In this document: positions 42,122 through 43,406 of the stretch, one piece after another
Layout: each line of letters starts with the position of its first letter
How positions within the stretch are numbered: the first letter of the stretch is position 1
Assembly: GCA_026195255.1 (NCBI GenBank)
Contig: JAPHSS010000013.1
Span: forward strand, 1 to 43,406
Length of the DNA: 43,406 nt
Reading direction: 5' to 3'
Origin: Gammaproteobacteria bacterium
GTDB lineage: Bacteria; Pseudomonadota; Gammaproteobacteria; SZUA-229
Translations under genes and position numbers: made by a program
The notes under the pieces: generated by a model
The model's database searches: none
Told to the model about the DNA's origin: nothing
The model's input: only the letters and a program-made list of their open reading frames with translations

Positions 42122-43183
<1,062 letters not shown>

Positions 43184-43304
43184 ATTATTGCCCTGCTTGC
43201 CTCTGTGGGCTCCCAGCTCTTCGTTAGAAAATGGACATTTACATTTGTAAACTCACATTTTCTGCCTTGATCTGGAATCCCACAGAGGCAAGCAGGACAA
43301 TAAT
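43184..43304. repeat. Long hairpin repeat with 26-bp inverted ends after mreB
   Basis: The ends at 43184-43209 and 43279-43304 are inverted copies matching at 25 of 26 bases (CCTGCTTGCCTCTGTGGG core), and pairing continues inward to about 36 bases with 32 matches. Inside, AGAAAATG/CATTTTCT and TTTAC/GTAAA flank a four-base loop. The whole 121 bases fold as one hairpin. It begins immediately after the mreB stop. Confidence 0.85.
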
Positions 43305-43323
43305 TAGTATTGTTCTGGTGTGA

Positions 43324-43406
43324 GCTCCCAGCTCTTCGTTAGAAAATGGACATTTACATTTGTAAACTCACATTTTCTGCCTTGATCTGGAATCCCACAG
43401 AGGCAA
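43324..43406. repeat. Second tandem copy of the post-mreB repeat, cut by window edge
   Basis: These 83 bases match 43209-43291 without a visible difference, starting at GCTCCCAGCTCTTCG and ending at CCCACAGAGGCAA, at a period of 115 bases. The left outer arm of this copy is replaced by a different sequence (43305-43323). The array may continue beyond the window. Confidence 0.9.

Follow-up and report, generated by a model that had tools for sequence, protein, structure and literature searches.

The window, which is the whole stretch of 43,406 nucleotides analyzed here, corresponds to contig C57 in full of the genome G000. It carries mreB (42134-43183, plus strand; MreB, NF010539, E 1.1e-161), whose stop codon abuts a repeated element. 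The stop ends at position 43183 and a long hairpin begins at the very next base, as a preliminary description of this DNA had claimed. We found that the first unit, taken as a whole element, spans 43182-43306 and lies on the minus strand, defined here as the best-folding or sense strand (134.6 bits, E 5.6e-33 with the covariance model R1). Its two 37-nt arms (43183-43219 and 43269-43305) are 89% complementary and separated by a gap of 49 nt. The inverted repeat comprises a left, mreB-side arm with outer and middle segments (43184-43218) and a right arm (43275-43306). Between them, a conserved core, CAGATCAAGGC...AACGAAG, occupies 43219-43274 of the minus strand according to the core alignment and alignment A1, and encloses a tip hairpin at 43238-43251. 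As RNA, the region 43180-43310 folds with an energy of -65.4 kcal/mol, against -26.95 (sd 3.54) for shuffled sequences (z -10.9), and none of 200 shuffles matched this value. Folded on its own, the first unit reaches -63.6 on the plus strand and -73.9 on the minus strand.

A second unit (43307-43406, minus strand) follows as a direct repeat at a spacing of 115 and runs past the end of the contig. It is 99% identical to the first unit over the 88 nt compared and matches the model at 43319-43399 (80.1 bits), and its left arm is unlike that of the first unit. The coordinates, the 115-base period and the different left arm given in the preliminary description were all correct by the inverted- and direct-repeat analysis. 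Extension to the right led to contig C10, which represents the mreC side of the array: mreC is adjoined there by one full and one cut unit. The cut unit of C10 differs from both units of C57 by a single base (GGAAACCC versus GGAATCCC), hence the array of this genome holds at least three units, or four if the base is real. The repeat thus lies between mreB and mreC, as anticipated. Moreover, single contigs bridge the locus into mreC in the related genomes G002, with two units, and G004, with one, and therefore the repeat is not merely a fault of assembly.

The element is not confined to this locus. Searching the genome at the DNA level returned 18 matches, and R1, built from 39 copies of the window's genus, gave at least 39 matches at E <= 1e-6, many of them being both strands of one copy. 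These collapse to at least 24 distinct places, the two of the window included, so the notion that only two copies might exist does not hold. Two weak matches among the 24, at C55:4022 (61.9 bits) and C47:148536 (48.6 bits), are not relied on. All model counts are lower bounds, as they come from the part of the first-look candidates that was scored (150 of 826 in G000). In G004, a congener assembled in 10 contigs, at least 20 model matches correspond to at least 12 places. Copies also occur in relatives, with DNA matches in 10 of 40 genomes and model matches in at least 19 of 40, and a pattern scan of the GTDB genome set returned 75 stretches from metagenome-assembled genomes titled Sedimenticola sp., Gammaproteobacteria, Chromatiales and Thiotrichales. 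One genome, G033, yielded at least 73 model matches; on the basis of the middle arm, its copies divide into at least two subfamilies, in which changes in one arm are matched in the other. Contigs end in or near copies at L065, L070, L075, L105, L117 and L133, and at C57, C10, C3 and C56 of G000; therefore, draft assemblies break at this element.

Genomes with near-identical, young copies point to the mobile character of the family. Young copies have the ends GTAAC...GTTAC: they begin with GTAACTACTCAG or GTAACTGCTCAG and finish with CTGAGTAGTTAC. In genomes other than the window's genus, exact 8-bp target duplications flank 30 of the 52 testable copies, a count that omits L070 and L133, two of 32 nominally exact rows whose flanks are empty at contig edges. 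Within the window's genus, where the copies look too old, duplication-like matches occur at chance level, with no excess over mismatched flanks, so that insertion there is deduced from the other genomes. Many copies bear an additional left module of about 31 bp that opens with a second GTAACTACTCAG end and lies inside the target duplication, and therefore the element has two possible left ends (L040-L055, L063, L081 and others). The element is about 120 bp long and contains no open reading frame of 100 amino acids. Judged from its sequence, its assignment to the IS66-type MITEs is well supported by the ends, the length of the duplication and the lack of a gene.

Such an element would be mobilized in trans by an IS66 transposase. 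Carriers and candidate partners coincide in G045, which has both a MITE copy (L110) and an IS66 element with matching ends (L139). The latter (925-2413) encodes a 462-aa single-ORF IS66 protein (PF03050, E 5.4e-45; NF033517, E 1.2e-85), is flanked by GTAACTATTCAGC ends with a terminal inverted repeat that is perfect across 14 bases, and has no target duplication. A search of 274 genomes of the class at E <= 1e-60 found relatives of this protein in 8. Ends of the GTAAC type occur at 7 of the 12 IS66 loci examined, four with perfect 8-bp target duplications (L149, L150, L151 and L154) and three without (L139, L148 and L152); the other five (L137, L138, L140, L153 and L155) show neither such ends nor a duplication. 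No IS66 transposase (PF03050) was found in G000, nor in the drafts of G001-G004, G009, G033 and G041, and G040 has a fragment only. Overall, 7 of 14 carrier genomes, which are drafts, gave a transposase match, mostly to fragments, and no intact IS66 partner was found in the drafts richest in copies, the copy-rich G033 having no detected IS66 transposase at all. The ends and the 8-bp direct repeat coincide with those of ISDge4, of the ISBst12 (single-ORF) group of IS66 elements, reported with ends GTGACTACTCAGCA / GTAACTGCTCAGCA (PMC12898284). Thus, as far as the ends are concerned, the early statement that the repeat resembles no known element does not stand. The suggestion of a transposable miniature is supported by dispersed copies, conserved ends, young 8-bp duplications and matching transposase ends.

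Read along the sense strand (minus in the window), the element consists of a variable outer arm, a conserved mismatched motif (CAGGTTGCC versus GGTGAGCTG), a variable middle arm, the conserved CAGATCAAGGC versus AACGAAG, an inner stem and a tip hairpin with a variable loop. Compensatory changes among copies, proposed earlier as a check, are abundant. In alignment A1, which holds the 39 of 59 genus copies that are full length, with a 56-nt core and in register, and which biases the pairing figures upwards, 94.3% of 1871 cells are paired and 36 of 48 pairs have changed on both sides; the covariation score is 0.524, against 0.207 after shuffling and 0.07-0.11 after sliding. One pairing count was restricted to copies with at least 15 paired letters in register, excluding 9 of 56. 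The four-base tip loop varies between near-identical copies in G033, JALSSX and JALULB (e.g., L037-L056), and nine loop types were seen in one 19-copy subfamily of G033.

How the arms stay paired can be approached through the 9-nt motif that is usually mismatched. It is fully complementary in 7 of 71 copies: unit 1 of the window, its G002 ortholog, L085, and the young L065, L116, L125 and L133. At the mreB-mreC locus, the motif is mismatched in G004 and matched in G000 and G002. Compared with their subfamily consensus, L065, L116 and L125 carry three clustered left-arm changes that turn this arm into the complement of the right one, and L133 carries one change in the left arm and two in the right. 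Some arms therefore look as though they had been overwritten by the complement of the opposite arm. RNA hairpins are known to arise and to be maintained through template switching (PMC8794818), and the overwritten arms are the footprint to be expected if hairpin template switching were their cause.

A strand signal is also apparent. Comparison of G000 with G002 (9 loci, 432 pairs) revealed 20 pairs switched on both sides to another Watson-Crick pair, and one-sided steps from or to Watson-Crick pairing which, on the sense strand, involve G-U in 26 cases, A-C in 7 and other mispairs in 7. The sense strand is the complement of the mRNA of the upstream gene, so the best-pairing strand is not the mreB mRNA strand, on which one-sided changes are mostly A-C rather than G-U. 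The sense strand also gives the better fold in 38 of 39 copies (mean -66.9 versus -50.2 kcal/mol). Young copies show 31 G-U to 9 A-C changes overall, unevenly distributed among genomes (19 to 2 in G033, 6 to 1 in JALULB and 6 to 6 in JALSSX), and the excess is 17 to 7 (p 0.06) when each position and change is counted once. On the one hand, four-fold sites of 17 neighboring genes, which on the coding strand have more T than A and hardly any G/C skew, give no support to a mutational cause. On the other hand, a mutational bias could still underlie the signal, since loops lean in the same direction (7 to 1). The signal argues, albeit not conclusively, against selection for the hairpin in its mRNA form.

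In G000, copies lie mostly behind genes. A stop codon lies within 4 nt of the model edge in 17 of 24 rows, always of a gene opposite to the sense strand, and overlaps the last four bases of the element in 7 of these 17. Genes above the NCBIfam cut-off are mreB, trpS, tsf, rplT, groL, ilvC, guaB, grpE, atpG, atpE, a thiolase gene and two genes of the dsrC/tusE family; scores under the cut-off were obtained for a fliL-like gene and those of an iron-sulfur protein and an NAD(P)-binding protein, and a further post-stop protein had no NCBIfam match. Two further copies, in the same orientation, lie about 10 nt 3' of rnpB and of ffs. Across G000-G004, such a stop is found no more than 12 nt away from 48 of 69 copies, and the orientation ratio is 58 to 7; orthologous copies enter these counts, which hence are not independent. 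In 14 groups, at least two genomes have kept a copy at the corresponding locus.

Outside the genus the pattern varies. The survey, its counts for the genus included, covered copies more than 60 nt from a locus end, including 30 copies of G033 (of at least 73 model matches) and part of the Sedimenticola copies, with genes called on ORF length alone. In G011, where 8 of 10 copies have target duplications with at most one mismatch, 7 copies stand post-stop and 9 share the genus orientation; the genes in front include those for a nucleotide-sugar dehydrogenase, purB and pstS. Two of six copies are post-stop in G009 (orientation 3 to 3), to which a closer look adds atpE, and 4 of nine copies of other genomes are post-stop (orientation 6 to 2). 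Elsewhere in the family, the element stands behind rpsR and atpE (G009), nusG (G007) and ccoP (G015). Young copies follow no clear positional rule: 3 of 30 are post-stop in G033 (orientation 12 to 18), 0 of 13 in JALSSX (8 to 3) and 2 of 10 in JALULB (4 to 5).

The history of the mreB-mreC copy can be read from the congeners. There is one unit in G004, two in G002 and at least three in G000; the copy of G001 is decayed, and in G003 a short palindrome of outer-arm letters is all that is left, the core being missing. Inspection by eye of nine genomes of other genera disclosed no recognizable copy at mreB; G009 has a different short hairpin there and G015 a terminator-like one. From this series and the lack of a recognizable copy in those nine genomes, it follows that the insertion is old within the genus and the copy is dispensable in at least two of its species.

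Several known systems share features with this family. At about 100-200 bp, dispersed and with a long stem-loop, the ERIC/IRU, Correia/NEMIS and RUP MITEs are similar to it, but the 8-bp target duplication, the IS66-type ends and the one-orientation placement behind stop codons in the genus set the element apart from ERIC, NEMIS and RUP. ERIC has a short TA-type target duplication; membership in ERIC was rejected, as the duplication here is 8 bp. REP and BIME sequences, associated with a Y1 (RAYT) transposase, are likewise palindromes outside genes, often 3' of them, but the present element is longer and has target duplications. Integron attC sites possess R and L boxes and depend on an integron integrase. 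Rfam 15 gave no match in the window at the gathering threshold and none for 43150-43406 at E 5, and a known structured RNA was rejected on this basis. Regarding published elements, ERIC and NEMIS are reported to affect neighboring mRNA (PMC2229807, part consulted). The intergenic TAACTGA repeats of sulfur-oxidizing Beggiatoaceae have similar letters (TAACTG), but in the accessible part of PMC4679880 they are heptamer direct repeats and not long hairpins. Unlike the ISBst12 insertion sequences with GTAACTGCTCAGCA / GTGACTACTCAGCA ends, the element is geneless, about 120 bp long, and a hairpin over its full length with covarying arms. It is not described in the titles and abstract beginnings of the open-licence literature searched.

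Altogether, the element is probably an ISBst12-type IS66 MITE that was inserted behind mreB, multiplied in tandem and kept as a hairpin with paired arms. An IS66 transposase would have acted in trans on the GTAAC...GTTAC ends, duplicating 8 bp of the target, and an ancestor within the genus would thereby have gained a copy behind the mreB stop codon. Tandem multiplication in the line leading to G000 and G002 would have followed, and the copy would have persisted as a 3'-flanking hairpin. Two processes may each contribute to keeping its arms complementary: hairpin template switching, in which one arm serves as template for the other, and selection for the fold, stronger on the strand complementary to the mreB mRNA. 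Transposition alone does not account for the fixed post-stop orientation, which the young copies of G033 lack. The long retention, the orientation and the pairing of the arms are compatible with a host function, with template switching alone, or with the two combined.

What the old copies do now is less certain. They may be inert remains, their arms paired by template switching alone and their post-stop position marking where insertions survive. This reading, a minority possibility worth keeping in view, draws on the clustered one-arm overwrites, the decay of the mreB copy in two congeners and the role of template switching in RNA hairpins (PMC8794818). It is harder to reconcile with the 26 to 7 preference for sense-strand G-U over A-C, which selection for the fold would produce, with the 58 to 7 orientation and with the 14 groups sharing a locus across species. 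Host use of old copies as 3'-end elements that delay breakdown of the upstream mRNA or lower the output of the downstream gene is possible but doubtful. It presupposes the MITE origin and sees the upstream genes as made in excess of their neighbors, and an effect on expression may be suspected from the 48 of 69 post-stop copies and their orientation, the ten named genes from mreB to atpE, the copies behind rnpB and ffs, the shared loci and the covariation of the arms. Nevertheless, at mreB G001 has a decayed copy and G003 no more than a short palindrome, the mRNA strand has the weaker fold with mostly A-C one-sided changes, and the post-stop position could mirror tolerance of insertions, in counts that include orthologs. 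That the working form instead derives from the strand opposite the upstream gene, either as an antisense or small RNA or as a hairpin of single-stranded DNA, seems improbable. The better sense-strand fold in 38 of 39 copies and the G-U excess of old (26 to 7) and young (31 to 9) copies would agree with it, but the parity in JALSSX (6 to 6), the p of 0.06 for the 17 to 7 count and the similar lean of loops, which a mutational bias might explain, weaken it. We consider it unlikely, albeit somewhat less so, that the family was domesticated genus-wide as a portable, oriented 3'-end hairpin, placed after the stops of housekeeping genes and after rnpB and ffs and maintained by coupled evolution of its arms, with the constraint on the opposite strand and an antisense RNA or single-stranded DNA hairpin of that strand, rather than the mRNA, as its working form. 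Finally, an integron attC site, a REP element, an Rfam RNA or an assembly artefact is scarcely credible: an imperfect palindrome with conserved mismatches and a contig that terminates inside the repeat could suggest as much, but there are 8-bp target duplications, no Rfam match, copies dispersed over many contigs and genomes, and contigs of G002 and G004 that span the locus.

The probable IS66-type MITE family described here, partly present in named public metagenome-assembled genomes, can be traced from its young stage, when target duplications flank the copies, to an old one in which they stand oriented behind core genes. Overwritten arms, two-sided changes and the G-U/A-C strand signal can be counted in common copies, so that the roles of selection and of template switching in maintaining paired arms can be tested on natural material. 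Should the old copies act on expression, one transposon would have changed the 3' ends of numerous core genes simultaneously. The copy 3' of trpS (L003) is followed downstream by serial stretches similar to the outer arms of the element (CCTGAG...ATTACC), which look like decayed copies.
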